Assembly (NCBI GenBank): GCA_001803045.1
Contig: MHAR01000085.1
Location: 1-55,225 of the forward strand
DNA from: Ignavibacteria bacterium RIFOXYB12_FULL_35_14
GTDB lineage: Bacteria > Bacteroidota > Ignavibacteria > Ignavibacteriales > Ignavibacteriaceae
Length of the DNA stretch: 55,225 bases
Reading direction: 5' to 3'
Positions 1-26,861 of the stretch are shown here, one piece after another. Each line of letters begins with the position of its first letter. Within the stretch, counting starts at the first letter, position 1. The notes under the pieces are model-generated. The model was not told where the DNA came from. It searched no databases and saw only the letters and a program-made list of their open reading frames with translations. The translations under genes and the position numbers were made by a program.

Positions 1-89
1 TCGTGACAAATCACCTATTAAAAACACAGAAATATTTTCTTTTCACCTCTCTATATCGGATTTAAGGATTAAAACTAAAGAGGAATAAA

Positions 90-428: not shown

Positions 429-446
429 GGTTATAGTGGAATTTTT

Positions 447-1256: not shown

Positions 1257-1323
1257 AGTTATATTACGTTGAAAACTAAAAAATCAAAAGAAGAGTTTAA
1301 ATAACAAAGGAATTTTGATATCA

Positions 1324-1860: not shown

Positions 1861-1882
1861 CGATAGAATAAGCAGAATCGAC

Positions 1883-2027: not shown

Positions 2028-2094
2028 AAAGATGTAGAAGGCCTATATCTAAGTCAATAATTTACATTGGTATAAATACCAAGGAGTTGTTCAT

Positions 2095-2631
2095 ATGGAA
2101 AAAATTACTTTACTGATACTTTACTTCTGTATAGCAGTTTCTGCTCAGAATTTAAAGTTAGGATTTGATTTTGAAATAGGAACGATAAGAATTAGTTACC
2201 CGGGTGGAAAGGGAATTCTGAGTGTGTCTCAATTACCTTTATCTGGTCATTTGAACCTATGTTACAACGTAATTGAATACTTTTCAATCCAAGGAAAAAT
2301 TGGAAGATCGATAGTCACTGAATTCCTAGGCTGCGAATACGGAATAAATGGAAAATATAAATTTTATAAACCGCTGTATATTGGATGCGGTTATTTGATA
2401 CATTCAAACAAAGGTGATTATTATTCAAATCAACTGGTAGTTGCTACCACAACTATTAATATAATACAGTTAGGAATTGGAGTTGACATCTTCGATTTTT
2501 TATCAATAGGATTGGATTATTACGTCCCAACCTCAAAAAAGGTAATTGTTTGGCGAGGTTTGTTCGAGAAACAACCTCAAACATTTGAAAGCATGATAAG
2601 ATTAGGTTTTAATTTTGGCTGGGATTTATAA
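2095..2631 (+). CDS. Small outer-membrane beta-barrel-type protein, paralogue 2
   Basis: A 178-residue exported protein paralogous to the gene at 1324-1860. Both have a signal peptide, then QNLKLGFD just after the cleavage region, and a shared tail (FLSIGLDYY.PTSKKVIVW.GLF) ending RLGFNFGWD. The central region has diverged. AAGGAG (2080-2085) lies nine bases before the ATG. A hairpin terminator follows the stop. Function unknown; the final aromatic strand suggests outer-membrane insertion. Confidence 0.72.
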   Translation: MEKITLLILYFCIAVSAQNLKLGFDFEIGTIRISYPGGKGILSVSQLPLSGHLNLCYNVIEYFSIQGKIGRSIVTEFLGCEYGINGKYKFYKPLYIGCGYLIHSNKGDYYSNQLVVATTTINIIQLGIGVDIFDFLSIGLDYYVPTSKKVIVWRGLFEKQPQTFESMIRLGFNFGWDL

Positions 2632-2637
2632 AATAGG

Positions 2638-2683
2638 AAACCCAATTTCTCTCAGCATTTTTCACTTCGGAGAAATTGGGTTT
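2638..2683 (+). terminator. Hairpin terminator after barrel paralogue 2
   Basis: A 14-bp perfect inverted repeat (AAACCCAATTTCTC / GAGAAATTGGGTTT) lies 7 bp after the stop codon. An almost identical hairpin follows paralogue 3 at 3448-3494, so the terminator was probably duplicated with the gene. Confidence 0.75.
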
Positions 2684-2691
2684 GCTAATCA

Positions 2692-2838
2692 TGGTTAAGG
2701 AAATTTGAACAATACTTACGTATAGAGTGGAGATGCACATTACAAGATTCATGCGACTGTGACCCTGATGATTCTGATGCTGGTTGGTATGTTTACCAAA
2801 TATGGCCAACGGGAGCTTACAGAGAAGTATTCCCTTAG
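2692..2838 (+). pseudogene. Degraded 3' end of a third lipoprotein-gene copy
   Basis: The open reading from WLRKFEQYLRIEWRC through CDCDPDDSDAGWYVY to REVFP and a TAG at 2836-2838 aligns along its full length with the C-terminus of the interrupted lipoprotein. It has no start codon: a TAA lies two codons upstream at 2686-2688, right after the terminator. It is a 3' remnant sitting between barrel paralogues 2 and 3, matching the remnant at 1883-2027. Confidence 0.72.
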
Positions 2839-2898
2839 AGGATATGAAATAGTTCTATACTTAACCATAACGTAACTTAATTCTTAATCGAGGAAATC

Positions 2899-3441
2899 AT
2901 GAGAAAATTATTTTTATTTTTTGTTTTATATAGTCTTTTCTTTGACACTTCTGCTCAATCAAAAACTTTTCATCTCGGCTTAAAGACAGAATTCTATGCT
3001 TATACTTCACAGGAGATTAGCAGTTATAAAACATATTCAAAGGTACTCAATCTTTCTCCACTCCCAGCAATGTACGTAGTTATCTCAAAGGATTTATCGG
3101 AAGAATTTTCCCTAACTCTAAAACCGGGCTTATCCTTTCGGCCTGTTACTGCAAACTTTGAATTGGGGTTTGCGTTGAACTATAAAATCTGTGCATACCA
3201 ATATTTCTTAATGGGCGGAATAAATGCTTATTTCAGTAAGTATGGAGAAACTAATCCTATTATTTATTTTGCTTTCATCGGTTCGGGGTATCAATTAACA
3301 AACAGATTAGCTGTAGATCTTAGTTTTCATCAGGCTTTAAACACAGAATTTGCCTTCGATAATTATAGTGGGCACACATATTATGAAGGACCTTCAAAAC
3401 TGTTGAATATGATAAAGCTCGGTTTAGCAGCAACGCTTTAA
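2899..3441 (+). CDS. Small outer-membrane beta-barrel-type protein, paralogue 3 (divergent)
   Basis: A 180-residue exported protein with a signal peptide ending near TSAQ and a barrel-like strand pattern. It has the same length and position after a lipoprotein remnant as paralogues 1 and 2, but much lower similarity; the C-terminus (NMIKLGLAATL) loosely echoes their MIRLGFNFGWD. CGAGGAA (2889-2895) lies a few bases before the ATG. Function unknown. It could be a distant paralogue or a separate barrel family that occupies the same slot. Confidence 0.65.
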   Translation: MRKLFLFFVLYSLFFDTSAQSKTFHLGLKTEFYAYTSQEISSYKTYSKVLNLSPLPAMYVVISKDLSEEFSLTLKPGLSFRPVTANFELGFALNYKICAYQYFLMGGINAYFSKYGETNPIIYFAFIGSGYQLTNRLAVDLSFHQALNTEFAFDNYSGHTYYEGPSKLLNMIKLGLAATL

Positions 3442-3447
3442 ATTCAC

Positions 3448-3494
3448 AAACCCAATTTCTCTTAGTTGTTTTTCACTCGGGAGAAATTGGGTTT
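3448..3494. terminator. Bidirectional hairpin terminator
   Basis: Inverted repeat AAACCCAATTTCTC / GAGAAATTGGGTTT, with T-rich sequence on the plus side (GTTTGTTTTG), between convergent genes ending at 3441 and 3508. It is nearly the same hairpin as at 2638-2683. Confidence 0.75.
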
Positions 3495-3507
3495 GTTTTG
3501 TAACTAC

Positions 3508-4431
3508 CTAGAAATTAAATGTCATCCCTACTTTAAACTGATCATAAGAGAGCGGAGCAGCACTGTTAAATGGCCAGTTCATTTTTTCCTGTTTAAGTTC
3601 ATAAATACCGTAAGATAAAGCGCTTTTCAAAACAAAGCTTACAATTGGTAATGCTGAGGGAGTTGACTGCCCAATTTTCTTAATAAAATGATCAAGCATT
3701 CCTTGAGCCGCTGCTTCAATTATACCGCTGCCAGCCCACTTCCAAAATAAATGCCTTTCAAAAATTATTGATCTCTCATAGCTGACATCAAGACTAACAA
3801 GCGGAATGATTTTGAATCTTACCCCTGCTTCAGCTCCGGTTCCAAATCGGAATGCTTCATCAAATCGCTCAGCAAATGCTGCATCACCTGGATTTTGAAG
3901 CGCATCTTTGAACTTTACTCGCGACCAAGCCATAGAAGTAGAATGATATGGAATAATCGAAGATTTCCCTAAATCATATCCATATCCCGAAGCCCAGCCA
4001 AAACCAAACCGCCACATATCTGTGCGAATATCTTTGCTTGCTGAGTTGTTGCCGTTCGTCTTGGTGAATGAATTTCCAAGGAAAATATAATTGAATCTAT
4101 AACGCAAAACATCATCTGAATATTTTGACTCATGAATTGAAGTGTATCCTAACTTAAGCTCGGGGTAATTGGTGTTTGAAAAATCACCGCTGAAGTTTTC
4201 AAGATTGATCCGCGATTGACCATAGTTAAATGAAATAGTGGGTGATCCCTTCAATCCGAAATCCATTGTCTCTTTTCCCCAGTCAAAATCAAAATCAAAT
4301 GAATCCGTTGAATCGGAATCACATTCTTCTTCGATGGCAGTTAAGAGGGTATCATTTTCATTCTGTGGGAATGAGTGAAAACCTAAACCGGAAATTAAGA
4401 GAAGCGCAAAAAGTAACTTTAGTGTTTGCAT
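3508..4431 (-). CDS. Exported outer-membrane-type protein of unknown function
   Basis: A 307-residue protein with a signal peptide (MQTLKLLFALLLISGLGFHS), an acidic Asp/Ser-rich linker (DSDSTDSFDFDFDW), then strands typical of a beta-barrel and a C-terminal ...FKVGMTFNF ending in Phe. AGGAG lies six bases before the ATG. I do not recognise a family. It shares no obvious sequence with the three small barrels on the other strand. Probably an outer-membrane protein. Confidence 0.65.
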   Translation of the reverse strand: MQTLKLLFALLLISGLGFHSFPQNENDTLLTAIEEECDSDSTDSFDFDFDWGKETMDFGLKGSPTISFNYGQSRINLENFSGDFSNTNYPELKLGYTSIHESKYSDDVLRYRFNYIFLGNSFTKTNGNNSASKDIRTDMWRFGFGWASGYGYDLGKSSIIPYHSTSMAWSRVKFKDALQNPGDAAFAERFDEAFRFGTGAEAGVRFKIIPLVSLDVSYERSIIFERHLFWKWAGSGIIEAAAQGMLDHFIKKIGQSTPSALPIVSFVLKSALSYGIYELKQEKMNWPFNSAAPLSYDQFKVGMTFNF

Positions 4432-4762
4432 GGTGAACTCCTATATTTATTAGTTGATGCATTTGAAACTAACACTGCCGTATCAAGCATAATGCCGAAA
4501 AGTAAAATCGTTATTGTTAAGAAATGTAATTCCATCTTTGTTAATTGTATCTTTTATTAAAATAGTAAGTTCAATTAATTATACAAGCTTAAACTACAAC
4601 TTATTCACTATCCTTGCGAGGATTCATTTTACATCACTCATTCGCAATACAATTTTATTTAATTGTGGTAGGCCGCATAATTAAATTTATTTAGAAAGTT
4701 TAATTAAGTGAAAAGCGGTTTATAGGAATGATGAGTGCTACATATTTGCAATAGCTTAGTAT
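4432..4762. other. Intergenic region, 331 bp, no gene seen
   Basis: AT-rich spacer between two minus-strand genes. It should hold the promoter of the exported protein at 3508-4431, but I could not pick a -33/-7 or a sigma-54 (GG-N10-GC) site with confidence, and no short coding frame with a ribosome site stands out. Confidence 0.5.
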
Positions 4763-7219
4763 TTATTTCAGGTAGTGTCTAATTACCTCATCCAGATAAG
4801 AATGGAATTTTTGAGGCAGGTTTTTATACTTTGATGATAATTTTTTTCTTACGCTATCGTAATCGTCTCCTTTAAGTTCGCTGACCGGCTCTATAATGTT
4901 ATTTAAGAACGTCTGCATTTTTGTTTGGAGTCTATCGAATACTTCCGAATCATCGGTACAGGCAATATCTGCTAAAGTTTTATCGAAGTTAAAGTTATTC
5001 TCAACAAGAATTTTAAACACTAATCCTCTGAAATTTTCAGAAATTGTAGTTCGATTTACATCACCAAGCTCTTTTGCCGTTTCCACAATAGATGAATGCG
5101 AAAATTTTTTTTGTCGTAAAGAATCAAGCACAAGATCCTCAAAATTCAATTTTAAGCCCTTAACAATTTCATCCGGCAAGTCATTAAGCTGAAGCATATT
5201 TCTTCCAGCAGATTTAGCAAAGATCACAGCGCGTTTTATCACCGATTCTAACTCGCGAACATTTCCATTCCATTTATAACTCATTAAAACATCAAGGACT
5301 GCTTTCGAGATTTTAAATTCCATCGATTCAATGCTTAAAAAATGTCTTACCAAAGATTCAATATCTTCCTTTCTGTCTCGTAAAGGCGGAAGGTCAATAC
5401 GGATGACATTTAAACGATAATATAAATCTTCTCTGAACTTCTTTTCTTTAACAGTAAATTCTAATTTTTTATTTGTCGCAGCAACAACTCTAATGTTTAC
5501 TTTAGTAGTTTTTGATGAGCCAACTTTTTCAAACTCGCCGGACTGTAAAACCCTCAAAAGCTTGACTTGAAAATTTTCCGAAGTTTCAGCTATTTCATCA
5601 AGAAATATAGTTCCATTGTCAGCAGCTTCAAATCGGCCGATTTTATCCGTAACAGCTCCTGTAAACGATCCTTTTACATGTCCAAATAGTTCTGATTCAA
5701 GAAGAGTTTCCGAGATCGCACCACAGTTTACAGCCACAAAATTATTTCGATTTCTTTTACTTAATTTATGAATAGCTTGTGCTACAAGTTCTTTCCCTGT
5801 TCCGCTTTCACCGGTAATTAAAACATTAGCTTCTTCCGGTGCTGTCTTCTGAATAAGCTCGACAACATTTTGCATCGCTTTAGATTTATAAACAATGCTA
5901 TGAAAGTTTTTAATTTCAACAGGGGGGATTACTTCCGATTCGGTGTCATCTTCAGCAACTTTTTTCATCCTTGATATTTCCGATTCAAGTGATGCAATCT
6001 TTTTGGTTAATTCAACTGCTTTTTCTTTTCCGGATAACTCAAGTTCTTTCTGAAAAGTTAACAATTCACTCTCTTTGCTTGAGAGAAGAGATTTTAATAT
6101 CTGGGCTTCATCAATAGCTCCAGCCAGCTCAAGTTTCTTCTCGGTCAGCTCGGAAAGCAATTGATACAACAATAGCAAGATGGCAGGAAGTAATATTGCC
6201 CAGTAATCCAACCTAAGGTAGAAGAATACATGAAGTGTGAATGCAAAAAGAATTACGAGCATGAATAATGCACTTAGCAGAGAAGTTACTTTCACATTAA
6301 ATTTTTTCTGAAGCCAGATCACTAATATGAAAATAAAAGAAAAGAAGATTGTTGATGCGAACTTATAATCATCACGGAAATATCTTTGATGGATCAGATT
6401 ATCCAGAGCAAAAGCATGAAGCGTAAATGCTGGAGCATCCTCATCGAAGTTCGTAGAAAGTCCTTGGGTGATTTGCGGATCGCTTACCCCAATTATCACA
6501 ACTTTATCTTTTAAATTATTAAGCTCATCACTTTCGGATTGAATTAAGTCGTGAAAATCGAGCAACGAATAATTTTTAAGACTTTTCCACGATGAAATAA
6601 AATTCACATCAATTGATTTTGGATAGCTGCGAGTGCCTACGTTTTCAATAAGTTGGTAAGAAAAAGCTTTTTCAGTTACGCCATCTGCTTTAAGCTCCAA
6701 AGGTACTTTGATAGTGGGATCTTCTACATAATTGATATGTCCGGTTTTAATTTTCTCATCAAGCAGTTTGGAACTTGGATAGCTTAGCGAATCTGATAGA
6801 AAATATTCATCACTTTGAATAATATTTCCGGCAACTGAACTTAGAGTAACTCGATTTGATTTGATTATCTCGTTGGTAAGTAAATTATCATAGACTGTCT
6901 GCGAAATGAATTTTGCACTTAGAAAAACTTCAAGTCCAATTGCTTTAACTTCTTTAATAGTCAATTTGTTAATCAGCAATGCATAATAGCTTCTCTTTAT
7001 TGGCCAAGGACCAATGTTTTCAAGATCGGAAGCTGAGATGTGAATTAAGACAATGTTTGAATCTGGTGCCGCTTCGCCCTTTATTTTAGAAAAGATTTTT
7101 TCGGTGAACAAATTCAGCGGAACAAATGAATCTTTAAACAGAGATAATATTAAAAAGGATAGAACAACAATTGCTGTTCTTACCAATGTTTTATTTTTTA
7201 TCAAAGCCGCTAAATTCAT
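4763..7219 (-). CDS. CHASE2-domain membrane sensor fused to a sigma-54 AAA+ activator
   Basis: An 818-residue sensor-activator. Residues ~12-28 form a first membrane segment; ~50-285 are an extracytoplasmic CHASE2-like domain ([17 protein letters not shown]); three membrane helices follow at ~287-355, then a coiled coil at ~357-425. The AAA+ sigma-54 activator domain has Walker A GESGTGKE (470-477), a GSFTGA loop (517-522) in place of GAFTGA, and Walker B FLDE (539-542). The C-terminal region has a helix-turn-helix-like stretch ([20 protein letters not shown]) and an extra helical tail. It should read an external signal and open sigma-54 promoters directly, without a separate kinase. Sigma-54 itself is encoded at 12054-13502. 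The target promoters are not visible. Confidence 0.88.
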
Positions 7220-14329: not shown

Positions 14330-15271
14330 ATGAAAAGGATCACAGTCGTTGCATTGGGAGGAAATGCACTTCTTCGTGGAAGCGAGACCGGCACAATTCA
14401 GCAGCAAGAAAAAAATACATACGATACTTGTAAAAATCTAATTAACATAATAAATAAAGATTACGGTTTAGTGATCACTCACGGCAATGGTCCGCAGATA
14501 GGAAATATTCTTCTAAGGAATGAAGCAGGCTATGAAAGTTATAAAATTCCGAAAATGCCGATAGATATTTGTGTTGCTGATTCGCAGGGTGGAATTGGCT
14601 ATATGATTGAACGACAGATGAAAAATATTTTAAGAGAAAATAAAATTAGGAAGAATGTAATTACGATTGTAACTGAAGTGCTTGTTGATATAAATGATCA
14701 GGCATTTAAGGAACCAACAAAACCTGTCGGAAAATATTATCTGAAAGAAGAAGCTGATCTTTTGGCAAGAGCTAATAATTGGATGTTCACGGAGGATTCT
14801 AGAAAAAGAGGCTGGAGAAGAATAGTTGCTTCACCAAAACCCATTGATATTCTTGGTAAAAAAATCATTAAAGATTTAGTAAGCAAAGGAAACATAGTAA
14901 TTGCTGTAGGCGGCGGTGGTGTTCCCGTTTACTTAGATCAAAATAAAAATTTACAGGGGATTGAAGCCGTAATTGACAAGGATTTAGCATCATCACTTTT
15001 AGCCACTGAAATCGGCGCAGAGTGCTTGTATATTCTAACAGATGTTCCAAAAGTTTATATAAATTTCCATAAGCCAAATCAAATGGCGCTTGATAAATTA
15101 AATGTTGATGATGCAAAAAAATATTACGATGAAGAGCAGTTCTCCGCCGGAAGTATGGGTCCAAAAATATTGTCTGCCATCAGTTTTTTAATCAATGGCG
15201 GAAAAGAATGCATTATAACAGAAGCATCAGAATTAAATAACCCGAAAAGCGGAACGGTGATTACGAAATGA
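14330..15271 (+). CDS. arcC: Carbamate kinase
   Basis: Converts carbamoyl phosphate and ADP to ATP, CO2 and ammonia, or the reverse. The 313 residues carry the amino-acid-kinase fold: ALGGNALL at the N-terminus, THGNGPQIGN, GGGGVPVY, and the ending FSAGSMGPKILSA that marks carbamate kinases. It pairs with the ornithine carbamoyltransferase at 15422-16354, together forming the ATP-yielding lower half of the arginine deiminase pathway. No arginine deiminase is in the window, so citrulline or carbamoyl compounds may come from elsewhere. Confidence 0.95.
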   Translation: MKRITVVALGGNALLRGSETGTIQQQEKNTYDTCKNLINIINKDYGLVITHGNGPQIGNILLRNEAGYESYKIPKMPIDICVADSQGGIGYMIERQMKNILRENKIRKNVITIVTEVLVDINDQAFKEPTKPVGKYYLKEEADLLARANNWMFTEDSRKRGWRRIVASPKPIDILGKKIIKDLVSKGNIVIAVGGGGVPVYLDQNKNLQGIEAVIDKDLASSLLATEIGAECLYILTDVPKVYINFHKPNQMALDKLNVDDAKKYYDEEQFSAGSMGPKILSAISFLINGGKECIITEASELNNPKSGTVITK

Positions 15272-15273
15272 AA

Positions 15274-15365
15274 TCAATAGCACACTGAAGACACAGATAC
15301 GACTGATTTGCGCTGATTTAAATATGTACTAATCTGCTGAATCAGTGTCATCTACGTGCCATTGA
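15274..15365. repeat. Short palindromic repeat, copy A (inverted relative to 22012-22104)
   Basis: About 92 bp with terminal inverted repeats TCAATAG / CCATTGA. The reverse complement of the copy at 22012-22104 matches along the whole length (CACAGATRCGACTGATTT, AATCAGTGTCATCT, GTGCCATTGA). It begins 3 bp after the arcC stop and is non-coding. Similar AATCAGCG/GTGTCATC repeats are scattered through many bacterial genomes, and I read it as a MITE-like element. Confidence 0.8.
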
Positions 15366-15421
15366 CTAATTCTGTAATCCTTAAAAAACAATAATAGTAT
15401 TCATTTTTTGGAGATATTAAA

Positions 15422-16354
15422 ATGGCAGTTAACATGCAGAGCAAAGATCTAATTTCAATCCATGATCTCACTCTCGAGGAAGTCAATCAAATATTTGAAG
15501 TGAGCAAAACTTTAAAACAAAAACAATTGATAGGTGAACCACATCGAGTGCTTGAAGGCAAAACTCTCGGAATGATCTTCACAAAACCTTCTACCAGAAC
15601 AAGAATTTCTTTTGAAACGGGAATCTATCAGCTTGGTGGAATTGGTATGTACTTTGGTCCGAACGATCTTCAATTGGGCAGAAGCGAGTCAATTTCTGAT
15701 ACAGCAAAAGTTTTATCCCGTTACTTAGACGGAATCATGATCCGCACTTTTGCCCATCAAGATGTAGTTGATTTGGCAGACGGTGCTTCAATTCCAGTAA
15801 TTAACGGACTCACCGATCTGCTTCATCCGTGTCAAGTTCTTGCCGATCTTTTTACAATCCTTGAGAAAAAAGGAAAGCTGAAAGGACTAAAGCTTGCATA
15901 CATCGGCGATGGTAACAACATGGCTCATAGCTTACTAAATGGCTGTTCAAAAGTTGGAATGCATATTTCGATCGCTTCACCTTCGGGTTACAAACCCAAT
16001 ACAGAAATTGTGAACAATGCAAAAAAGAATGCAAAGTACATGGGAAGTAAAGTCGAGATATTTGATGACCCAGTTAAAGCTGTTAGAAACGCTGACATAG
16101 TTTATACAGATGTTTGGGCAAGCATGGGACAAGAAGCCGAAGCTGCTGAAAGAAGAAAAAAATTCATGAAATACCAAGTTAATCCGAAGTTGGTCAAGAA
16201 TGCAAAGGATGATTATCTGTTCATGCATTGTCTGCCTGCTCATCGCGGAGATGAAGTTGTAAACGAAGTTGCAGACTCTCCCAACTCAGTTATATTTGAT
16301 GAAGCGGAGAATCGTTTGCATGTTCAAAAAGCAATCATGGCGTTGGTGATGTAG
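15422..16354 (+). CDS. argF: Ornithine carbamoyltransferase
   Basis: Joins carbamoyl phosphate and ornithine to citrulline, or runs in reverse in catabolism. Carbamoyl-phosphate motif STRTR at 57-61; HPCQ at 135-138; FMHCLPAHRG with the ornithine-side Cys toward the C-terminus; 310 residues as expected. GGAG lies eight bases before the ATG. It shares strand and neighbourhood with carbamate kinase, so a catabolic or citrulline-handling role is plausible; no other arginine genes are present to settle this. Confidence 0.95.
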   Translation: MAVNMQSKDLISIHDLTLEEVNQIFEVSKTLKQKQLIGEPHRVLEGKTLGMIFTKPSTRTRISFETGIYQLGGIGMYFGPNDLQLGRSESISDTAKVLSRYLDGIMIRTFAHQDVVDLADGASIPVINGLTDLLHPCQVLADLFTILEKKGKLKGLKLAYIGDGNNMAHSLLNGCSKVGMHISIASPSGYKPNTEIVNNAKKNAKYMGSKVEIFDDPVKAVRNADIVYTDVWASMGQEAEAAERRKKFMKYQVNPKLVKNAKDDYLFMHCLPAHRGDEVVNEVADSPNSVIFDEAENRLHVQKAIMALVM

Positions 16355-16438
16355 TTCATGCATACAAGTTTAGAAATGAAGATTTTTTTTGCTAAATCAA
16401 TTTTGAATTTCTTTATGATTCTGAAAATTTGATAGGGT

Positions 16439-16560
16439 AATAAGGTTGCGTTTCTTGGACTTTTATAATTACTAAGGTTAAACAAAATGTAAATATGGTT
16501 TTGTAATGACTAACCTTAGTAACTAATTGAATGCCAGTTTATTAAACCTTATCATCTTAT
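16439..16560. repeat. Nested inverted repeat, copy 1
   Basis: An inner palindrome (TTACTAAGGTTA at 16469-16480 against TAACCTTAGTAA at 16511-16522) sits inside an outer one (AATAAGGTT at 16439-16447 against AACCTTAT at 16545-16552). The same words, in the same nesting, occur at 37949-38095. It fills most of the 236-bp space between argF and the SDR gene; no coding frame is evident. Confidence 0.65.
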
Positions 16561-16590
16561 ATTTATCCGTTAATCTTACTTAATAAATCA

Positions 16591-17358
16591 ATGAATCTAT
16601 TAAACAAAACTATCCTCATCACCGGTGCATCGAGCGGTATTGGCTATGAACTTGCCAGACAGCTTGCCGCAGAAAAATGTAAACTCATTCTACTTGCAAG
16701 GAGAAAAGAAATTCTGGATTCGTTTACAGAAAAAATAAAATCTAGCAACACCATACTCACCTACCAATGCGATGTTCGAAATAAATGTGAGGTTGAAAAT
16801 GTATTTGACGATATCCGGAAAAAGATGGATCACATAGATATTGCGATTCTAAATTCCGGTGTGGGTCTTAAAGCATCTGTAGAAAATTTTGATTCAAAAC
16901 TTGCCGATGAATCGTTTGAAGTTAATGTATTAGGGCTGATTTATTGTGTTGAGGAGCTTCTCAAGGATTTTATACCAAGAAAAAGCGGAATCATTGCCGG
17001 GGTATCCAGCATTGCCGATGTGAGAGGATTTCCCATGAATGGATTTTATTGTGCAAGCAAAGCCGCAGCCTCTGTTTTTCTGGAAAGCATTCGAGTAGAA
17101 TTAAAAAGACATAATGTTAAGATCATAACCGTTCGCCCGGGATTTGTGACAACTCCAATGATAGCAAAGAATAAATTTAAGATGCCGTTTTTAATGAAAG
17201 CTGACAAAGCTGCCGGCATTATCGTCCGGGGAATAAAAAAAGAGAGGAAAATAATTCAATTTCCAATCGGTACAGTTATATGGGGAAAATTGATAAAAGT
17301 ATTGCCTAATTTTATTTTTGATTTTATATTTTCGAAGCAAATACCGTATGAAAAATAA
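16591..17358 (+). CDS. Short-chain dehydrogenase/reductase
   Basis: A classical NAD(P)-dependent SDR of 255 residues. Cofactor motif TGASSGIG (11-18), ARRK after the second strand suggesting NADP preference, and catalytic Ser139/140, Tyr153 and Lys157 (YCASK). The NAG motif is NSG (88-90). Substrate unknown. A hydrophobic C-terminus (IFDFIFSKQIPYEK) may bring it to the membrane, as in related DltE-like enzymes. It is closely followed by a TPR lipoprotein gene. Confidence 0.88.
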   Translation: MNLLNKTILITGASSGIGYELARQLAAEKCKLILLARRKEILDSFTEKIKSSNTILTYQCDVRNKCEVENVFDDIRKKMDHIDIAILNSGVGLKASVENFDSKLADESFEVNVLGLIYCVEELLKDFIPRKSGIIAGVSSIADVRGFPMNGFYCASKAAASVFLESIRVELKRHNVKIITVRPGFVTTPMIAKNKFKMPFLMKADKAAGIIVRGIKKERKIIQFPIGTVIWGKLIKVLPNFIFDFIFSKQIPYEK

Positions 17359-17377
17359 AAATGAAAGGAATGCCGTT

Positions 17378-18538
17378 ATGAAAAATTTCTTTCTGCCTAT
17401 CAAAAACATAGTGTCAATATCTCTTTATCCTGTGCTGTTTCTTAATCTTTATCTTAATCTTCATCTTTTAACCGGCTGCTCCCTTTCCAGCCAATACATT
17501 TCGGAGGGTCTTGAGCTATACGATTCCACTTATTACAAAGAAGCTGAGCAGAAATTTCTTGAAGCAATCGCAGAAGACTCATCTTCAGCCGAAGCATTTT
17601 TTCATCTTGGTAGAACCAGAAGTCAGCTTCAATCATATCGTTCAGCAGTTGAAGACTTTTCAAAAACGATAGAACTCGATCCCGAAAACTCTGAAGCATA
17701 TCTTAACCGGGCAATTATCTACATAGAGTTAGAAGAGAGGCGAAAAGCTTTAGATGATTTAAATTCTTCAATTGAACTGAACAATCAAAGTTACACTGCA
17801 TTTTTCAACAGGGCATATCTTAAAGCTGAAATGGGAGATTATGAGGGTTCGCTTCTCGATTACGATGAAGCAATTAGCCTGAATCCGGATGATCCAAAAG
17901 CATATGTGAATAGAGGAAATGTTAAGGGACTTCTTAAAGATCATCAAGGCGCGATAGAGGATTTTACAAAATCGTTGGAATTTGATTCAACCAATGTTCA
18001 AGCTTATTTGAACAGAGCGAACGATCGTGTGCTTGCAGAGGATTATGAAGGAGCTATCGCAGATTTTACAGAAGTGATAAAACAAAATCTACAGAACATC
18101 GATGCAATTATTCGAAGAGGTGATCTATACTTCAGGCTGGAAAAATATGATGATGCAAATACGGATTTATCCGCAGTTTTGAAAGCAAATCCGAAGAATA
18201 CCGATGCGCTGATGCTCAGGGGCGATATTAAAGCAAAGCAGCAAAAAAATAAGGAAGCAATCGAGGACTACGCAAAAGTAATTAAACTTGATTCCAAATC
18301 GAGCGAAGCGTATTTCAAGCGCGGTAAAATTTTATTGGACACGAAAAAGTATGACTCTGCGATAAAAGATTTTTCAGAGATGATAAAGCTGAATCCCAAA
18401 GACGGAAGGGCTTACCACTCACGAGGACTTGCAAAGCTAAAGCTTAAAAAGAAAAAAGATGCCTGTAAAGATTTGAAGAAAGCCGGTGAGCTTGGCTACT
18501 TTGATGCTTATGCAGATATAAAGAAGTATTGCAAGTAA
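17378..18538 (+). CDS. TPR-repeat lipoprotein
   Basis: About 386 residues from ATG 17378, chosen because AAAGGA lies eight bases upstream; longer in-frame starts (for example 17348) would overlap the SDR gene. A long hydrophobic leader ends in LTGC, a lipobox, so the protein is probably lipid-anchored. The rest is nine to ten tandem tetratricopeptide repeats (A...LDP.NSEAYLNRA...). TPR arrays bind protein partners; none is indicated here. The DNA is itself repetitive in consequence. Confidence 0.85.
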   Translation: MKNFFLPIKNIVSISLYPVLFLNLYLNLHLLTGCSLSSQYISEGLELYDSTYYKEAEQKFLEAIAEDSSSAEAFFHLGRTRSQLQSYRSAVEDFSKTIELDPENSEAYLNRAIIYIELEERRKALDDLNSSIELNNQSYTAFFNRAYLKAEMGDYEGSLLDYDEAISLNPDDPKAYVNRGNVKGLLKDHQGAIEDFTKSLEFDSTNVQAYLNRANDRVLAEDYEGAIADFTEVIKQNLQNIDAIIRRGDLYFRLEKYDDANTDLSAVLKANPKNTDALMLRGDIKAKQQKNKEAIEDYAKVIKLDSKSSEAYFKRGKILLDTKKYDSAIKDFSEMIKLNPKDGRAYHSRGLAKLKLKKKKDACKDLKKAGELGYFDAYADIKKYCK

Positions 18539-18554
18539 AAACTAATTGAATAGA

Positions 18555-18608
18555 CCCGACTTTCAAGTCAGGGTATATAATACCGAAAGAAACGTGGGCT
18601 TTAGCCCA
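18555..18608. terminator. Two hairpins between the TPR gene and the WYL gene
   Basis: CCCGACTT-TC-AAGTCAGGG at 18555-18573 and TGGGCTTTAGCCCA at 18595-18608. They could stop transcription from the TPR gene, insulating the downstream WYL operon, but neither is followed by a strong T-run. They may be scattered genomic repeats instead. Confidence 0.45.
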
Positions 18609-18627
18609 AACTTCACAATAGAAATAC

Positions 18628-19446
18628 ATGACTAAAACGTACAATAATGAATCGCTTCGCAGATTTGAGCTTCTAGCACGAATCTTAAATGGGGAAGCAA
18701 TTACCAAAAATCAAGCTGCCGATGATTACAACGTTGAGGAGATAACCATAAGTCGTGATTTACAATTTTTCAGATCTCTTGGAATTGAAGCACTCAGCAG
18801 AAAAAATGGGATAGAAATTTTCAATAAAGTTAAAAATGAGCATTTAATCAGCTTTGCGTCCGAGTATTTCGCTCTAAAAATGAATTCCGATTATTTTACT
18901 AAATCAGTAAAAGTATTCTCAAAAGTTGATAAGTGCTTTTACCAGCAAATTGTGCTGCTAACAAAAGCAATTCAAGAGTCTCAAGTAGTTAAAATAACTT
19001 ATCAACGTCTTTCTGATGATGAAATAAAAAGCTACACCCTTCAACCTCTTCGCTTAGTTGAAAGTAATAACAATTGGATACTTCATGCGATTAAGAAAGA
19101 CGAGATAATACTTCAATTATTTTATCTAAGCCGTATTATCAACTTTCAATTAATAAATAAAAAGTTTGTCATCCCAACTGAGGTTGATGAAAATAAAGAA
19201 AAATATGAGATAGTGCTAAGATTTAGTCCTGAAGTTGAGAATGAAATATATTACAAAATCTGGTTTGATGAATTTGAAATAATCAAAGACAGTGAAGGGT
19301 ATATCATTTTGAAGACAGAGCAACCAATTACAAATAGATTAGCTGCTTGGTGTGTAAGTTGGTGGGATAAAATTCGAATAACTAGTCCGATTGAGTTGGA
19401 AGCACAAATTAATCAAATGATCAAAGCCTATAAAAAGCAAAGATGA
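18628..19446 (+). CDS. WYL-domain transcriptional regulator
   Basis: A 272-residue regulator. The N-terminus is a helix-turn-helix (residues ~10-60; KNQAADDYNVEEITISRDLQ). A WYL domain follows from ~110 (VVKITYQRL...LQPLRLVESNNNWILHAI), with W150-I-L in place of W-Y-L, and a C-terminal extension. WYL proteins of this layout (BrxR/CapW type) commonly repress phage-defence operons and respond to nucleic acid or nucleotide ligands. It starts the three-gene set with the nuclease and ATPase. No clear ribosome site; the ATG is the first good start. Confidence 0.85.
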   Translation: MTKTYNNESLRRFELLARILNGEAITKNQAADDYNVEEITISRDLQFFRSLGIEALSRKNGIEIFNKVKNEHLISFASEYFALKMNSDYFTKSVKVFSKVDKCFYQQIVLLTKAIQESQVVKITYQRLSDDEIKSYTLQPLRLVESNNNWILHAIKKDEIILQLFYLSRIINFQLINKKFVIPTEVDENKEKYEIVLRFSPEVENEIYYKIWFDEFEIIKDSEGYIILKTEQPITNRLAAWCVSWWDKIRITSPIELEAQINQMIKAYKKQR

Positions 19447-19479
19447 TTTATCAATAAATTATTTCTTAATAAGAAGCTT

Positions 19480-20631
19480 ATGAATAAGGAAATATTAGAA
19501 AAAATCAACATAGAAATTAATTCTATAACGCAATCTTCCGAATTCATTAAATTAAATGACCTGACAAATGAAGAAGACTTATTCTCAATCTTGAAAATCC
19601 AGAGAAAGGAATTGGTTCATTCTGATTTTTTAGCCAAACTTTTAGACCCTAATTGTTTCGATGACTTAAGGGATAAATTCTTAATCAGGTTTTTATCTTT
19701 TATTCAGAAAGACAGACCAATTCTAAATAGACTCTTTAAAAATGGAGGGCTGATTTCATCACCAATAATTTATCGCGAATACTACAGTATAGATTTAGTG
19801 TTGATTTTTATTAATGAAAAAATAATTCTTTCACTTGAAAACAAAATAGATGACGATGAAATGCTGGGTCAAATTGGGCGTTACCAACATTTTTTATTCA
19901 AAAAACTCCCTGATTTCGAGAGGGTATACTTATTTTTGACTATTGATAAACGGCCATCTTATTCATGCGATCCTAATCGTGAACCTGTATTGTCAATTTC
20001 ATATTCTGATATTGATAAATTACTAGAAGATGTTGTTCCAGAAATACAAAATCGTAACACAAAATATATAGTTGAGCAATTTATGAAACACTTGAAAGTC
20101 GAATTCTCTAGTGAAATTAAAGAGTTATGTATCTCCTTTTATAAAAGATACCCCATGTTCTATAAAACTTTGATTAAAAACTCTCTTCCTTACTTGGAAA
20201 ATTTTAGCGATTTAATTTATGAAATAGGAGAAGAATTTGGTTTCGATCCCCTAAAAAAAGAAACTTGGGATTATCCTAATTCGAATAGCTTAAAGACACA
20301 AATATGCTTCACTAAAGCTGAATATAAATTTGGAATGGGAGTTTTATTTTTCATTTCTCAAAACAAAGATCAACTATATGAAATGTACGTGATTCCAGCT
20401 ATTGATAAAACAAAAAAATGTGAACTTAAAAAAATATTACCTGATATTAGAATAGAACCTGTTCCCCAATATGAAAATGGGTGGTCATGGTTTTCCATTG
20501 AAAAAGAAGCCATCCTAATTTCAGAAGATCCAGTTATAGACGATAATTTGGAACAAAATATTCGAAAGGGATTTAAAGAGGCTCATTCGATAATACTAAA
20601 AATTAATGAACAAGTTAAAGAGAGGATGTAA
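19480..20631 (+). CDS. PD-(D/E)XK nuclease superfamily protein (PDDEXK_4-like)
   Basis: A 383-residue putative nuclease. The N-terminal motif HSDFLAKLLDP (47-57) and the core ID(105)LVLIF...LSLENK (Glu120, Lys122), followed by Q131xxxY135, fit the PD-(D/E)XK_4 family. The C-terminal half is unassigned. It lies 33 bp after the WYL regulator and 70 bp before the AAA+ ATPase, so a regulated nuclease-ATPase defence system is the likely context. Target (DNA or RNA) cannot be told from sequence. Confidence 0.82.
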   Translation: MNKEILEKINIEINSITQSSEFIKLNDLTNEEDLFSILKIQRKELVHSDFLAKLLDPNCFDDLRDKFLIRFLSFIQKDRPILNRLFKNGGLISSPIIYREYYSIDLVLIFINEKIILSLENKIDDDEMLGQIGRYQHFLFKKLPDFERVYLFLTIDKRPSYSCDPNREPVLSISYSDIDKLLEDVVPEIQNRNTKYIVEQFMKHLKVEFSSEIKELCISFYKRYPMFYKTLIKNSLPYLENFSDLIYEIGEEFGFDPLKKETWDYPNSNSLKTQICFTKAEYKFGMGVLFFISQNKDQLYEMYVIPAIDKTKKCELKKILPDIRIEPVPQYENGWSWFSIEKEAILISEDPVIDDNLEQNIRKGFKEAHSIILKINEQVKERM

Positions 20632-20701
20632 TTTTTTATCACCCCATGATAAGAATTTGAGCACTCCTTCTCTCATATTTACTACTAAAAAAGGAGGAGT
20701 T

Positions 20702-21961
20702 ATGTCAAAAGAAAAATCTTATATAACAATACCTGAAGAACTTATAAGCAAGGCGTTGTACAAGGTATATCTAACAGATACACATACAGAAATAATTAAG
20801 GATTTTCTCTACAAACTCTATCTTGGCAAATTGAATGACGAGAACATTTTTGTGCAAAAAGTCCTTGGCATAAAAAACAATTTTGATCCCGCTCTAACGC
20901 TTCCGAATATAAATTTTAACGAGAAAAACGGAATGTATTCTTTTACTGATTTTTATACTTTTTTCTCAGTTAAATATAAAGATGAGTCTTATGAATTAAA
21001 CTTCCAAACAGCATTTCAATTTGAATTTAATTGCGAGGATATATTCAGAAAAACTTTCTTATTTACCGGTGGTACAAGTAAAAAAGCAGACCGTTCAGAA
21101 GAACTTACTAAAGCTATTATTAGTTCAGCCATAGCAAATTGCTCAATACATAATAAAGTCGTTCGATTTGATAGAGAAGCATACAAAGGCGAAATGGTTA
21201 GAGCCGTAGAATTTGTTAATACTCCCCCAACAAAAACTTCCGATCTTTTTATTTCAGCCGATAAGAAAGATCAGATTATCAGATTCATCAACTCAATAAC
21301 TGATTTTGATAAGAATAAAATTTCATTGAGATATTTGTTTAATGGAAAACCAGGCACAGGTAAAACTCAAATAATAAACTCAATTATTACAGAGACATGT
21401 GGTAAATGTACGGTTGTGTTGTGCAACGGTGGATCACTGCCTGTTAAAAAGCTTTTCGAGTTTTGCAGTTACTTCAATCCATGCTTGCTCGTAATTGATG
21501 ATCTTGATTTCCTTGCAAATGATAGAGAAAATAATATACATCAAACTGAATTGGGAGATTTCCTTCAAGCACTGGATGGATTATTGCCGAACTTTGTATT
21601 TCTGTTGTCAGCAACTAATGATAAAGGCTTGGTTGATAAAGCTGCATCCCGGCCTGGAAGATTTGATATGATACTCGATATTGCAGAGATTGAGCCAAAG
21701 AACTATTTATCTTTAGTTAAAAGAGAAACCTGTGATGAAAGGATAATATCCCTTTTTGATGAAGATACTCTACTTTATTTAAAAGATAGAAGAGTTACGG
21801 GAGCTTTTATTGTTAGTTTATTAAAACAAATCAAAAGCTCCATTATGTTGAATGGTGAAATATCTTGTGAGGAATTTTCCGAATATTTAAATCTATGCTA
21901 TCGAGGTTTCTATTCAATAAATGATGATAATTTTAATAATGTTGTTGGGTTTGGAACATGA
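20702..21961 (+). CDS. AAA+ ATPase of the putative defence operon
   Basis: 419 residues from ATG 20702, set by a strong AAAGGAGG ribosome site; an upstream in-frame ATG at 20606 would overlap the nuclease gene. Residues 1-~205 are an unrecognised N-domain. The AAA module has Walker A GKPGTGKT (215-222), Walker B LLVIDDLD (262-269), sensor-1 Asn306 (SATN) and Arg-finger region SRPGRFD (316-322), like CDC48/Bcs1-type ATPases. It probably remodels or loads a partner, the obvious candidate being the nuclease upstream. Confidence 0.85.
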   Translation: MSKEKSYITIPEELISKALYKVYLTDTHTEIIKDFLYKLYLGKLNDENIFVQKVLGIKNNFDPALTLPNINFNEKNGMYSFTDFYTFFSVKYKDESYELNFQTAFQFEFNCEDIFRKTFLFTGGTSKKADRSEELTKAIISSAIANCSIHNKVVRFDREAYKGEMVRAVEFVNTPPTKTSDLFISADKKDQIIRFINSITDFDKNKISLRYLFNGKPGTGKTQIINSIITETCGKCTVVLCNGGSLPVKKLFEFCSYFNPCLLVIDDLDFLANDRENNIHQTELGDFLQALDGLLPNFVFLLSATNDKGLVDKAASRPGRFDMILDIAEIEPKNYLSLVKRETCDERIISLFDEDTLLYLKDRRVTGAFIVSLLKQIKSSIMLNGEISCEEFSEYLNLCYRGFYSINDDNFNNVVGFGT

Positions 21962-22011
21962 ATTAATGTTTGTAGCTTTAAATAGAGTTATTATACTTAA
22001 GTAAAATTCAG

Positions 22012-22104
22012 TCAATGGCACACAGATGACACTGATTAAACAGATAACTGCAGATTTAAAATCAGCGTAAATCAGTCGCATCTGTGTCATCAGCGTTCTA
22101 TTGA
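22012..22104. repeat. Short palindromic repeat, copy B
   Basis: A 93-bp element starting TCAATGGCACACAGATGACA and ending TCTATTGA, the inverted copy of 15274-15365. It lies 51 bp after the ATPase stop codon. The two copies face each other across 6.6 kb containing argF through the AAA+ gene. Confidence 0.8.
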
Positions 22105-22184
22105 TTTTTTTCAACTGGCTTCTTGCCGATAAACCAAATTAAAATTAACTTTCCTCTGAAATTCCTCTCAATAAGAGTGTTATT

Positions 22185-25100
22185 GTGAAAATATTTTTGA
22201 TCACCTTATTAATCTTTTTCATTGCTGCTACAATCTTTGCTCAATCGGATACGGCGTTAGTTTTATCCGAAATAATGTTCAATCCGCAATCGGGAAATAA
22301 TGAGTTCATCGAAATCTACAACCGCAGCGAAACACAAAGCTTTGACTTGGCTAACCACAAAATAATTTATTACACATCGAACGCTGATCTAATTACCTCA
22401 GCAGGATTTGGAACTGTACTTCCGCCAAAATCTTATGCTGTTATCTTCGAAGGTGATTATGATTTTGCAGCGGGAATTTATAATTCAATAATTCCTGCCA
22501 ATACACTTAAGCTTAAAATTTCCGATAACTCATTCGGTGCTTCCGGAATGGCAAATACAACTGATAGACCTGTGTTATTTGTAAATGCAGCAGATGATAC
22601 ACTCGACCGTCACACTTATTCGGCTAACAATTCTACTGGTTTTTCTGAAGAAAAGATAATTATAAATCGTGACAGCCTTTCAATTAACTGGGCAAATTCG
22701 CAGGTGTTTAATGGAACACCTGGATTCAGAAATTCCGTTACTCCGCTAAACTATGATTTAAAGATTAAGAGTCTGACAATCTCCCCGCAAATTCCAATTC
22801 AAGGACAGGACGTGCAAATCTTCACTTCAGTGATAAATGACGGATATTTTTCTGCTGCTTCATACACCATCGAAATTTTTAACGATGCAAATTTTGATTC
22901 CCTAGGAAACGTGTCAGAAATCATATATTCTCAAACATTTTCTAATTTATCTCCCCGTGATTCAATATCGGTTAGCACAACTATGCCTTCAATAACTCCA
23001 GGAAATTATCAAATAATTTCAACAGTAACTTTTAATTTTGATGAGGATACAACAAACGACAAAAAGATTTTAAGATTCACAGTTCATCCTCCGGGAAATA
23101 ATTATAATGATTTGGTAATTAATGAAATTATGTACGCACCATCAACCGGCGAACCGGAATGGGTGGAGTTATACAATAGAAGCGGCGAACCGATAAATCT
23201 CAAGAAATGGAAGCTTGGTGATAATACAACTTTAACAACTATCACCAACAACGATGCATTTATTCAACCGTTTTCTTTCTTTGTGTTAAGCAGGGATTCT
23301 TCGATAACATTTTTTTTCCCCAACATTATAAATTTTATTGTATTCAATTTACCTGCTTTAAATAACACCGGCGATGCGGTTGTGTTGAAAGATTCTCTCT
23401 CGGTTTTAATAGACAGCGTAACTTATGCACCTGATTGGGGAGGAAGTTTAGGAGGCAAATCGCTCGAAAGAATTTCTACAAACACATCAAGCACGGTGAA
23501 AGAAAATTGGGGAACTTCGCAAAGCATATTTAATGCTACCCCGGGATATATTAATTCACTTACACCGAAAGCTAATGACCTAAAGATTTTTTCATTCAGC
23601 AGCATTAAGGATTTTTTCATTATTGGTGAACAAGCTGAATTTAAAATTGAAATTCAGAATAAAGGATTGAATTCATCATCAAACTATCTCGTAAATATTT
23701 TTAACGATGTTAATAAAGATTCCGTTTCTCAGATCAGCGAGCTTATTGGACAAGTAAACCGAACTTCTCTTGCTTCAGGTGACAGTTATCAACTAACTTT
23801 TTCAACAACAAATTTTATTCAAGGGAAAAATTATTTTATCGCAAAGCTTGAAGTCACGCCTGACGATGATACAACTAATAATATTTCATTTACAGACTTT
23901 ACAGGTGTTTCCGTCAACGAGATCAGAAATGATATCGTGATAAATGAATTCATGTATGCCCCAACTTCTCCTGAACCTGAATGGATAGAAATCTATAACC
24001 GCAGCAGCAAGATAATTGATCTTAAGAATTATAAAATTGCCGACAACTCGGATTCAATTCTTGTCGTTAAGAACTCGACAATTCTTAATCCCGGAGAATA
24101 TCTCGTTATCGCTTCCGACACTACCTTGAGGAGATACTACAATGTTCTATCTCCAATCGTCTCTACAATTATTCCTTCTTTAAATAATACTAGTGATAAA
24201 TTAATTTTACTCGATTCGCTAAGTAGAACAATTGATTCTCTTCAGTATTTTTCTTCGTGGGGAGGAAGCAGCGGCAAGTCGCTTGAAAGAATTAGTACAG
24301 AACAATCTTTATCGGATTCATCTAATTGGAAAACCACTCAATCAAAGTACAAAGCAACCCCAGGATACATTAACTCTATTTCCCAAAAAGATTTTGATAT
24401 TCAAGTCACTGATATCGTTTTCATTCCAGAGTTTCCATTCTTTGGTGATAACGTTTCTGTTTTTGCTAAAGTTAAAAACATAGGAACAAGCACCGCTAAT
24501 TTCAACTTAAAACTTTGGGAAGATACCGATCTCGATTCGCTGCCAAATACTCTTATTTCATCGCTTGATGGACTCAATCTTCTTCCGGGTGATTCTGTGA
24601 ATGCCCAATTCGGTCTTTTAATTAGCAATCTGCAAAGCGAAAAAGGATTTTTTATAATTGCTGATTTCACTCAAGACCAGGACACAAGTAACAACTACTT
24701 TTATAAAAGGATTTCTCCCGGTTATCCTCCGAACACAGTTCTGGTAAATGAGATTATGTATACACCAATTAACAGTGAACCGGAATGGATTGAAATATTC
24801 AATAACTCAACTGATACGATTAATCTTAAGAATTGGAGTGTGACTGATATACTTACAACTCCAGCATCTGCCAAAGTTGCTGGGGATATTTTTATTTCTC
24901 CAAAATCATTTTTGGTTTTAGCAAAAGACACAACGCTTCACTTTTTTCATCGGCTAATTCCATCTAAGGTCATTAAACTAAATCTTCCCAATCTTAATAA
25001 TGATATTGATGGTGTTGTGCTCAAAGATAATCGTGGAATGACAATTGATTCCGTAAAATACTTTAGCGATTGGGGCGGAACAGGCGGCAAATCACTTGAA

Positions 25101-26861
25101 AGAATTTCGCTTACATCACCGTCTAATTTATCAGGAAATTGGAGCTCATCAACAGATATTGAATTAAGCACACCGGGAAGAATAAATAGTATTACTCCCA
25201 AACAATTTGATTTATACGTTGCGGAGATTTCTTTCAGTCCGAGATTTCCTGTCAATGGAGATAACGTTTTAATTAATGTAAAGGTTAAGAACAACGGCTC
25301 ATCGGCTGCAAATAACTTTTCGATTGAATTTTGGATTGATACAGATTCAAATCTTATTGTTGATCTGCTTTTATCAAAGACTGATGGATTAAATTTGGGT
25401 TCGGCTGATTCTTCCATTTTTACTTCTGCAGCTTCAATTAATAATCTCAATTCAAAAATTTTGACTGCTGTTAGAATTATTTTCACTCCTGACGAAGACA
25501 CACTGAATAACTATGCCGAAAAATTTGTTGAGCCAGGATTTCCGGAACAATCAATCATCGTCAATGAAGTAATGTACGCCCCAGCCAATAGCGAACCGGA
25601 GTGGATTGAGCTTGTAAATATTTCAAACAAAACAATTGATATTAATAATTGGTCTGTTAGTGATATGCTTACCACTCCGACAAAAGCTTTTATTACCAGC
25701 TCAAGTTTAGAAATTCAGCCAGGTGAATATTTCGTTTTGACCCGTGACACTTCATTTTACAATTTTCATTCGCCGATTGATTACAAAGTGAAAATTGTGA
25801 ACTTCGGAACCCTTGGCAACACTGAAGATGGAATAATGATTTACGATTTTCGCAACGGAATTATTGACAGCTTTTTCTATAAATCGTCTTTTGGTGGAAA
25901 CAACGGATATTCACTTGAAAGAATTTCGCTTTCACAAGCGACAAACGATAGCAGCAATTGGATTACTTCTTTGAGTTATAATCGAAGCACACCCGGTCAA
26001 CAGAACTCAATTTTTAACATTCCATTTTATACGAAGAATGATTTGGTAATTAACGAAATCATGTTCGATCCCGACATTGACAACAGCGAGTTCATAGAAT
26101 TTCTGAATTTGTCTTCTGATTCCATAAATATTGGCGGCTGGCATATAAAGGATGAAAATGAAAATGCAAGCATGCTTTCTGAAACGAGCTTAACTCTTCC
26201 GCCAAATCAATACTTTCTTTTTATTGCTGATTCAATAACGGTAAGAAAATACAATCTGCAAACTTATCCTTACAAATCTGTACTAGATAAATCGAGTCTT
26301 GGTTTAGTAAATACAGGAGAACTAATTCTACTCAAAGATGCAAGGGGAAATACAATCGATTCGGTTTGGTATTCCGATAAATGGCACAATAAAAATTTTG
26401 TTACTACAAAAAACATTTCGGTTGAAAGAATCAATCCACAATTAAATGGAAATGATTCAAAAAACTGGAGCAGCAGCGTAAATTCGAATGGTGCAACACC
26501 GGCTAATCAAAACAGCATTTTTACCGATAACCAAAATCGTTCAAATAACATTTCTGTTTCTCCAAATCCTTTTTCACCGGATAACGATGGATTCGAAGAT
26601 TTTACAATCATAAATTACACTCTCGGTCAACAGACCTCGCAGGTAAGAATTAAAATTTATGACAGCAAAGGGAGATTGGTAAGAACAGTAAGCAACAACC
26701 AGCCAAGCGGTTTATCCGGTTCAGTCGTGTTCGATGGAATTGGTGACGATGGTGCAGCTTTACGAATTGGTATCTACATAGTTTTCCTCGAAACGTTGAA
26801 TGAAACTGAAGGAGTGGTGGAAACTCTAAAAACAACTGTCGTGGTAGCGAGGAAGTTATAA
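22185..26861 (+). CDS. Giant secreted lamin-tail/CARDB repeat protein
   Basis: 1558 residues; GTG start with a signal peptide (MKIFLITLLIFFIAATIFAQ). Six lamin-tail domains begin near residues 24, 309, 584, 853, 1124 and 1286, each opening with (V/L)xNEIMYxPxxxEPEWIEIYN-type sequence. Four CARDB-like beta-sandwich domains sit between the first five, giving a ~270-residue period; the last spacing is only ~162. The C-terminus (SVSPNPFSPDNDG...KIYDSKGRLVRTV) is a FlgD-like/type IX-type tail. Likely cell-surface adhesive or scaffold protein. The internal repeats make the DNA prone to recombination. Confidence 0.85.
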   Translation: MKIFLITLLIFFIAATIFAQSDTALVLSEIMFNPQSGNNEFIEIYNRSETQSFDLANHKIIYYTSNADLITSAGFGTVLPPKSYAVIFEGDYDFAAGIYNSIIPANTLKLKISDNSFGASGMANTTDRPVLFVNAADDTLDRHTYSANNSTGFSEEKIIINRDSLSINWANSQVFNGTPGFRNSVTPLNYDLKIKSLTISPQIPIQGQDVQIFTSVINDGYFSAASYTIEIFNDANFDSLGNVSEIIYSQTFSNLSPRDSISVSTTMPSITPGNYQIISTVTFNFDEDTTNDKKILRFTVHPPGNNYNDLVINEIMYAPSTGEPEWVELYNRSGEPINLKKWKLGDNTTLTTITNNDAFIQPFSFFVLSRDSSITFFFPNIINFIVFNLPALNNTGDAVVLKDSLSVLIDSVTYAPDWGGSLGGKSLERISTNTSSTVKENWGTSQSIFNATPGYINSLTPKANDLKIFSFSSIKDFFIIGEQAEFKIEIQNKGLNSSSNYLVNIFNDVNKDSVSQISELIGQVNRTSLASGDSYQLTFSTTNFIQGKNYFIAKLEVTPDDDTTNNISFTDFTGVSVNEIRNDIVINEFMYAPTSPEPEWIEIYNRSSKIIDLKNYKIADNSDSILVVKNSTILNPGEYLVIASDTTLRRYYNVLSPIVSTIIPSLNNTSDKLILLDSLSRTIDSLQYFSSWGGSSGKSLERISTEQSLSDSSNWKTTQSKYKATPGYINSISQKDFDIQVTDIVFIPEFPFFGDNVSVFAKVKNIGTSTANFNLKLWEDTDLDSLPNTLISSLDGLNLLPGDSVNAQFGLLISNLQSEKGFFIIADFTQDQDTSNNYFYKRISPGYPPNTVLVNEIMYTPINSEPEWIEIFNNSTDTINLKNWSVTDILTTPASAKVAGDIFISPKSFLVLAKDTTLHFFHRLIPSKVIKLNLPNLNNDIDGVVLKDNRGMTIDSVKYFSDWGGTGGKSLERISLTSPSNLSGNWSSSTDIELSTPGRINSITPKQFDLYVAEISFSPRFPVNGDNVLINVKVKNNGSSAANNFSIEFWIDTDSNLIVDLLLSKTDGLNLGSADSSIFTSAASINNLNSKILTAVRIIFTPDEDTLNNYAEKFVEPGFPEQSIIVNEVMYAPANSEPEWIELVNISNKTIDINNWSVSDMLTTPTKAFITSSSLEIQPGEYFVLTRDTSFYNFHSPIDYKVKIVNFGTLGNTEDGIMIYDFRNGIIDSFFYKSSFGGNNGYSLERISLSQATNDSSNWITSLSYNRSTPGQQNSIFNIPFYTKNDLVINEIMFDPDIDNSEFIEFLNLSSDSINIGGWHIKDENENASMLSETSLTLPPNQYFLFIADSITVRKYNLQTYPYKSVLDKSSLGLVNTGELILLKDARGNTIDSVWYSDKWHNKNFVTTKNISVERINPQLNGNDSKNWSSSVNSNGATPANQNSIFTDNQNRSNNISVSPNPFSPDNDGFEDFTIINYTLGQQTSQVRIKIYDSKGRLVRTVSNNQPSGLSGSVVFDGIGDDGAALRIGIYIVFLETLNETEGVVETLKTTVVVARKL

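Follow-up and report, generated by a model that had tools for sequence, protein, structure and literature searches.

A WYL regulator and an AAA+ ATPase of an unnamed family beside a PDC-S26 nuclease: a candidate phage-defence cassette in Ignavibacteria

In the window, by which we mean the whole stretch of 55,225 nucleotides that was analysed, three plus-strand genes encoding in order a WYL regulator, a nuclease and an AAA+ ATPase form a block of about 3.5 kb in the source chromosome, and the original prediction regarded them as a candidate defence system. Our results support the description as a candidate defence cassette, while that of a conserved trio system is not supported because the nuclease adjoins the ATPase only here. 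As far as gene neighbourhoods in the class tell, the WYL gene and the ATPase appear to be what is co-conserved, namely the recurrent core, and the nuclease appears to be the variable part. The ATPase belongs, judging from its sequence, to an unnamed AAA family, and this family together with its WYL partner is a more interesting object than the trio.

The description of three compact genes on one strand agrees with our calls in both coordinates and gaps. The first gene (18628-19446, +) encodes P0001, a regulator of 272 aa with WYL and WCX domains; after a gap of 33 bp it is followed by the gene of P0002 (19480-20631, +), a PD-(D/E)XK nuclease of 383 aa of the PDDEXK_4 / PDC-S26 type, and after a further 70 bp by the gene of P0003 (20702-21961, +), the AAA+ ATPase of 419 aa. 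The block appears to be a clean insertion that was horizontally acquired. Another genome of the genus, G001, has the genes of both flanks together on one contig (L234), where by blastn the window positions 15197-18554 correspond to 2-3385 and the positions 22041-23557 to 3392-4905, both with 72% identity, and the window positions 18555-22040 have no counterpart between these collinear flanks. The insert delimited in this way by blastn (18555-22040) holds only the three genes and contains no transposase or integrase gene, and its G+C content is 31.0% against 36.6 and 35.8% in the flanks. A loss of the block in G001 would be the less favoured alternative, since the composition of the insert speaks for gain, as does the fact that few relatives have the ATPase. 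At the right junction there is a palindromic intergenic repeat (22020-22096) with 18-nt arms of 89%, a relative of which is found by blastn as a reverse match at 77-167 of L234. Downstream of the insert, the gene at 22185-26861 encodes a long repeat protein, the relatives of which are very variable in length, with the larger open frames from about 1260 to 1840 aa.

P0001, the regulator, matches WYL (PF13280, 7.6e-10) and WCX (PF25583, 1.2e-6), both over the Pfam cut-off, and its residues 3-55 give weak HTH matches below threshold. To call it BrxR/CapW-like is appropriate for this domain architecture but not for direct similarity, as phmmer with P0001 against all PDB chains, BrxR and CapW included, gave no match at E <= 0.01. 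By the BrxR homology criterion applied here, a direct search at E < 1e-5 with BrxR (PMC9122601), P0001 falls outside; a WYL profile of four sequences reaches BrxR (7qfz, 7t8k) and CapW (7tb5), the matches covering the WYL region. WYL regulators have been described as defence-island repressors (PMC9122601; PMC4012209). Immediately 5' of the WYL gene (18555-18608), two short dyads can be read from the sequence, CCCGACTT-TC-AAGTCAGGG and TGGGCT-TT-AGCCCA, which flank a TATAAT-like hexamer and might possibly, as a weak candidate, serve as an operator. Promoter-like matches upstream of the WYL gene are no better than those in shuffles. The positions 18555-18574 are single copy genome-wide with up to 2 mismatches allowed, and a dispersed repeat as the origin of the upstream dyad was ruled out, the genome having no second copy.

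For the nuclease, the assignment made in the original prediction is confirmed. P0002 matches PDDEXK_4 (PF14281) at 3.5e-17 with 63.4 bits against a cut-off of 22.3, and the PADLOC profile PDLC04972 of PDC-S26 at E 1.7e-36 over residues 16-381 of 383, by which it belongs to PDDEXK_4 and to the PADLOC candidate defence family PDC-S26. When P0002 is aligned with 10 PDC-S26/PDDEXK_4 homologues, D105, E120, K122 and Q131 are kept in the 11 sequences, the first three being the residues Asp105, Glu120 and Lys122 that had been proposed, and most of the 10 relatives have an E-x-x-H-S-type motif upstream of the catalytic residues. A direct PDB search with the nuclease sequence gave no match, no relative was confirmed in viral contigs, and a literature search found no reports of PDC-S26 or PDDEXK_4. 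A single-sequence structure model was discarded at pLDDT 35.

The start of the ATPase at 20702 is supported because the Shine-Dalgarno-like sequence AGGAGGAGT (20692-20700, +) precedes it and relatives align from about there; a further ATG of the same frame is present upstream at 20606. P0003 consists of an N-domain (about 1-165), an AAA domain (about 170-390), which matches Pfam AAA (PF00004) at 1.4e-14, and a conserved C-terminal tail. Residues 1-170 have no Pfam match above cut-off, in agreement with the earlier remark that the N-domain is unrecognised. The remark that the AAA+ motifs are complete holds only in part: the AAA assignment stands, but the Walker B is IDD (Asp266-Asp267) and not hhhhDE. 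This IDD is invariant in 26 of 26 family members, and across the same 26-member alignment lysine 221 and Arg317/Arg320 are invariant as well. The family has no FtsH-type aromatic pore loop, the FVEMFVG stretch being missing in the alignment, and it is shorter than FtsH between the post-Walker A strand and the next helix. Bcs1 likewise is not known to have an aromatic pore loop. Most proteins of the family end in ...GFY...GF, which resembles the docking tails of AAA rings. An AlphaFold (AF2) model of P0003 was built from four sequences (pLDDT 73.6, pTM 0.71), and in a full-length search its best full-length PDB match is B. subtilis YjoB (7w42; Foldseek E 1.4e-13, TM 0.51), followed by Bcs1. The comparison with YjoB gives a VIA Z of 19.4 over 324 residues with an rmsd of 7.2, and because this rmsd is large, the YjoB/Bcs1 match should be taken as a lead for the N-domain, short of proof.

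The family is patchily distributed. By profile search, 19 of the 391 genomes searched in the class carry it, with 27 copies together and up to four in one genome. Relatives with ~40% identity are found in 6 of 60 other sampled genomes of the taxonomic family, and another family of the same order has a relative with 33% identity. Contig MNYQ01000032 of Ignavibacteria bacterium CG2_30_36_16, which belongs to the same family as the source genome, also carries an ATPase of this kind. A phylum-wide profile search of 395 sampled genomes revealed no members beyond the class, and the lightly sampled phage and plasmid sequences gave distant AAA domains only and no copies of the ATPase; the rhizobial plasmid matches were rejected as relatives, being lone AAA genes. 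Wider genome contigs yielded no relatives when searched with the single ATPase sequence, and three full-length relatives, besides others covering mainly the AAA domain, with the ATPase alignment as query. Among the multicopy genomes, G208 has four copies (L164, L167, L171) and G367 three (L166, L170, L172), and their contexts differ.

A survey of the neighbourhoods of 28 ATPase loci rejects a conserved WYL-nuclease-ATPase system. The nuclease is adjacent to the ATPase at one of the 28 loci, that of the source window, and lies within three genes at two (the second is L166, with the nuclease on the other strand at a distance of three genes), and the trio was absent from the other PDC-S26 contigs that were examined within the class. 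The original prediction had regarded two outcomes as speaking against it. Over these 28 loci, nuclease and ATPase are essentially not co-conserved, which is the first of them; as for the second, no profile assigned the genes to a non-defence pathway. The reading as a candidate defence system draws on the PDC-S26 nuclease, the apparently acquired three-gene block and an ATPase that occurs amid WYL, restriction and conflict genes, and not on a conserved three-gene system.

The linkage of the ATPase with WYL genes is of a different kind. At 10 of the 28 loci a WYL gene lies at most two genes from the ATPase; 4 more have, at that distance, a small WYL-like protein of a kind that aligns to the WYL profile at 70% probability, which makes 14 of 28 together. 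The background is one WYL gene in 874 genes on unrelated contigs (P 5e-10) and one in 116 genes farther off on the same contigs (P 0.003), a contrast which is inflated at the 28 loci because the profile was trained partly on ATPase neighbours. The first WYL profile, which was built on four proteins and is less biased, found seven further ATPase loci. Moreover, in a class-wide search with the same four-protein alignment, 7 of 27 ATPases had a WYL gene at a distance of at most 3 kb, where even placement would give about 0.01; 5 of the 7 pairs are outside the training set, and the bias is smaller here. Relatives of P0001 itself adjoin the ATPase in L020 (47% identity) and L017 (40%), both in genomes without this nuclease. 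In about half of the loci the ATPase has no WYL gene in its vicinity, and close relatives of P0001 are also present in genomes without the ATPase, for example in L271 and L272, where a UDG-like protein adjoins them or lies close by. This UDG-like family, with the motif NNFIGYGNPxAxxxFIGIEE and a Pfam UDG match below threshold only, adjoins the ATPase in L161 and is near it in L174 and L165, and possibly provides an alternative effector. The class-wide search also found more distant WYL genes adjoining cas6 (L278, L279).

Other neighbours of the ATPase are varied. Restriction genes are found in several loci, namely HsdR (type I) and GmrSD in L020, HsdM in L167, and GmrSD in L171 and L173, and a DEDDh exonuclease is found in L170. 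In L014, L018, L175 and L176 the ATPase has cREC (PF20274) at a distance of one to three genes, and the first three of these loci also have the small WYL-like protein; HAD_SAK_2 is present in L168 and an ADP-ribosylglycohydrolase in L168 and L171. cREC has been tied to NAD/ADP-ribose processing systems and to cyclic-nucleotide-recognising WYL domains in phage-host conflict (PMC7824862). As neighbours, cREC, ADP-ribosylglycohydrolase and HAD_SAK_2 are equally consistent with RNA or NAD repair.

Considering all this, we tentatively read the locus as a mobile phage-defence-type cassette, with a WYL repressor and an unnamed AAA+ ring as the putative core and the PDC-S26 nuclease as a local effector, an explanation that we place a little under even chances. 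All three genes would form one operon, the expression of which would be held low by the WYL protein until a nucleotide-like ligand appearing on infection releases the repressor. The nuclease would then cut DNA as the effector, and the pore-loop-less ATPase would remodel folded proteins, as is thought for rings of the Bcs1/YjoB type, by which it might either activate or restrain the nuclease. Defence against phage is throughout what we infer from family and neighbourhood; the ligand of the WYL protein, the repression and a physical link between ATPase and nuclease are likewise proposals. The functional link of these two is the weak part of the explanation, since they are almost never neighbours elsewhere.

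The nuclease could also be an independent single-gene defence unit of PDC-S26 that slipped in between the WYL gene and the ATPase, shares their promoter and acts alone, while WYL and ATPase make a separate module. We consider this quite possible, if on the doubtful side. PADLOC treats PDC-S26 as a single-gene family, and of the copies in the class, which occur in 12 of 391 genomes, most stand alone, having no WYL gene and no ATPase of this family in the vicinity; a related PDDEXK_4 nuclease in L021 is accompanied by a divergent WYL gene of its own and by no ATPase, and the best plasmid relative of the nuclease has unrelated single genes around it, in a cassette-array-like stretch from Vibrio. 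However, the three genes come and go as one clean block with its gaps of 33 and 70 bp, and nuclease and ATPase share a genome more often than chance predicts (4 observed against 0.58 expected, P 0.0016). It is unlikely, in our estimation, that the ATPase acts in a toxin-antitoxin-like manner, as an antitoxin or chaperone which keeps the nuclease inactive until infection, as in modules of the IetA/IetS type. Such gatekeeping is supported by precedents, since in mycoplasmas an AAA-ATPase and a subtilisin-like protein together make a functional toxin-antitoxin module, and in Agrobacterium the subtilase IetS, which has an AAA partner, is reported to be a toxin (PMC8562856), and also by the PADLOC IetA profile, which is matched in 26 of 26 family members by the AAA domain. 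The match is nevertheless confined to this domain, with 62 bits against the NCBIfam cut-off of 510, the insert has no subtilase, and nearly all other ATPase loci are without this nuclease. The sequence evidence does not separate the favoured cassette from its independent-nuclease and gatekeeper forms.

Still less probable is a module for stress or repair rather than for defence, in which a WYL-controlled AAA ATPase would be tied to the processing of RNA ends or ADP-ribose and the nuclease would be a bystander. In favour of it, cREC occurs at four loci, ADP-ribosylglycohydrolase at two and HAD_SAK_2 at one, and cREC has been described with NAD/ADP-ribose systems and WYL domains, but the window contains none of the three and restriction genes recur too; it also overlaps defence, since the authors of PMC7824862 place such systems in phage-host conflict. 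That the three genes are chance neighbours with no shared function is very improbable, for although the trio is seen only once, the block is present or absent as a unit on one strand with short gaps, and the WYL-ATPase linkage is found across many genomes.

A broader form of the favoured cassette would be a modular defence core in Ignavibacteria, made of a WYL sensor-regulator and a Bcs1-like pore-loop-less AAA+ ring with interchangeable effectors or accessory enzymes, the partners being PDC-S26 here and the DEDDh exonuclease, UDG-like protein, cREC, HAD_SAK_2 or ADP-ribosylglycohydrolase elsewhere; this is speculative and in our view rather unlikely. If the cassette reading is right, an unnamed ATPase family in ~5% of the genomes of one class joins the candidate defence modules, a ring ATPase without threading loop beside a DNA-cutting effector becomes a testable case, and the locus gives an example of a single-gene nuclease candidate recruited into a regulated operon.

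Compared with known systems, the locus has partial likenesses. As with BrxR and CapW, a gene with WYL and WCX domains heads a putative defence operon, but its cargo is neither BREX nor CBASS and phmmer finds no match. P0002 resembles PDC-S26 over almost all of its own length with the catalytic residues present; its gene shares an operon with those of a WYL regulator and an ATPase, whereas PADLOC scores PDC-S26 as stand-alone, and the defence role of PDC-S26 itself is only a candidate one. Among PADLOC profiles, IetA comes closest to the AAA domain of the family, while the N-domain of P0003 is unmatched and the insert has a nuclease instead of a subtilase; membership in IetAS was rejected at 62.4 bits for NF042959 against the cut-off of 510, with no adjacent subtilisin-like protease in the insert. 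DUF4297-HerA (PMC11291478) shares the two-part idea of a nuclease beside a ring ATPase, but its nuclease is of another family, HerA is not a classic AAA, and its ATPase and nuclease form one complex, whereas the families of P0002 and P0003 are rarely linked. Bcs1 and YjoB are the best full-length folds for the model of P0003, in which an N-domain is likewise predicted to be followed by AAA; they differ from it in their low identity (15-17%), in the large rmsd, which arises because the domains are placed differently, and in that the P0003 family is linked to WYL genes and defence islands.
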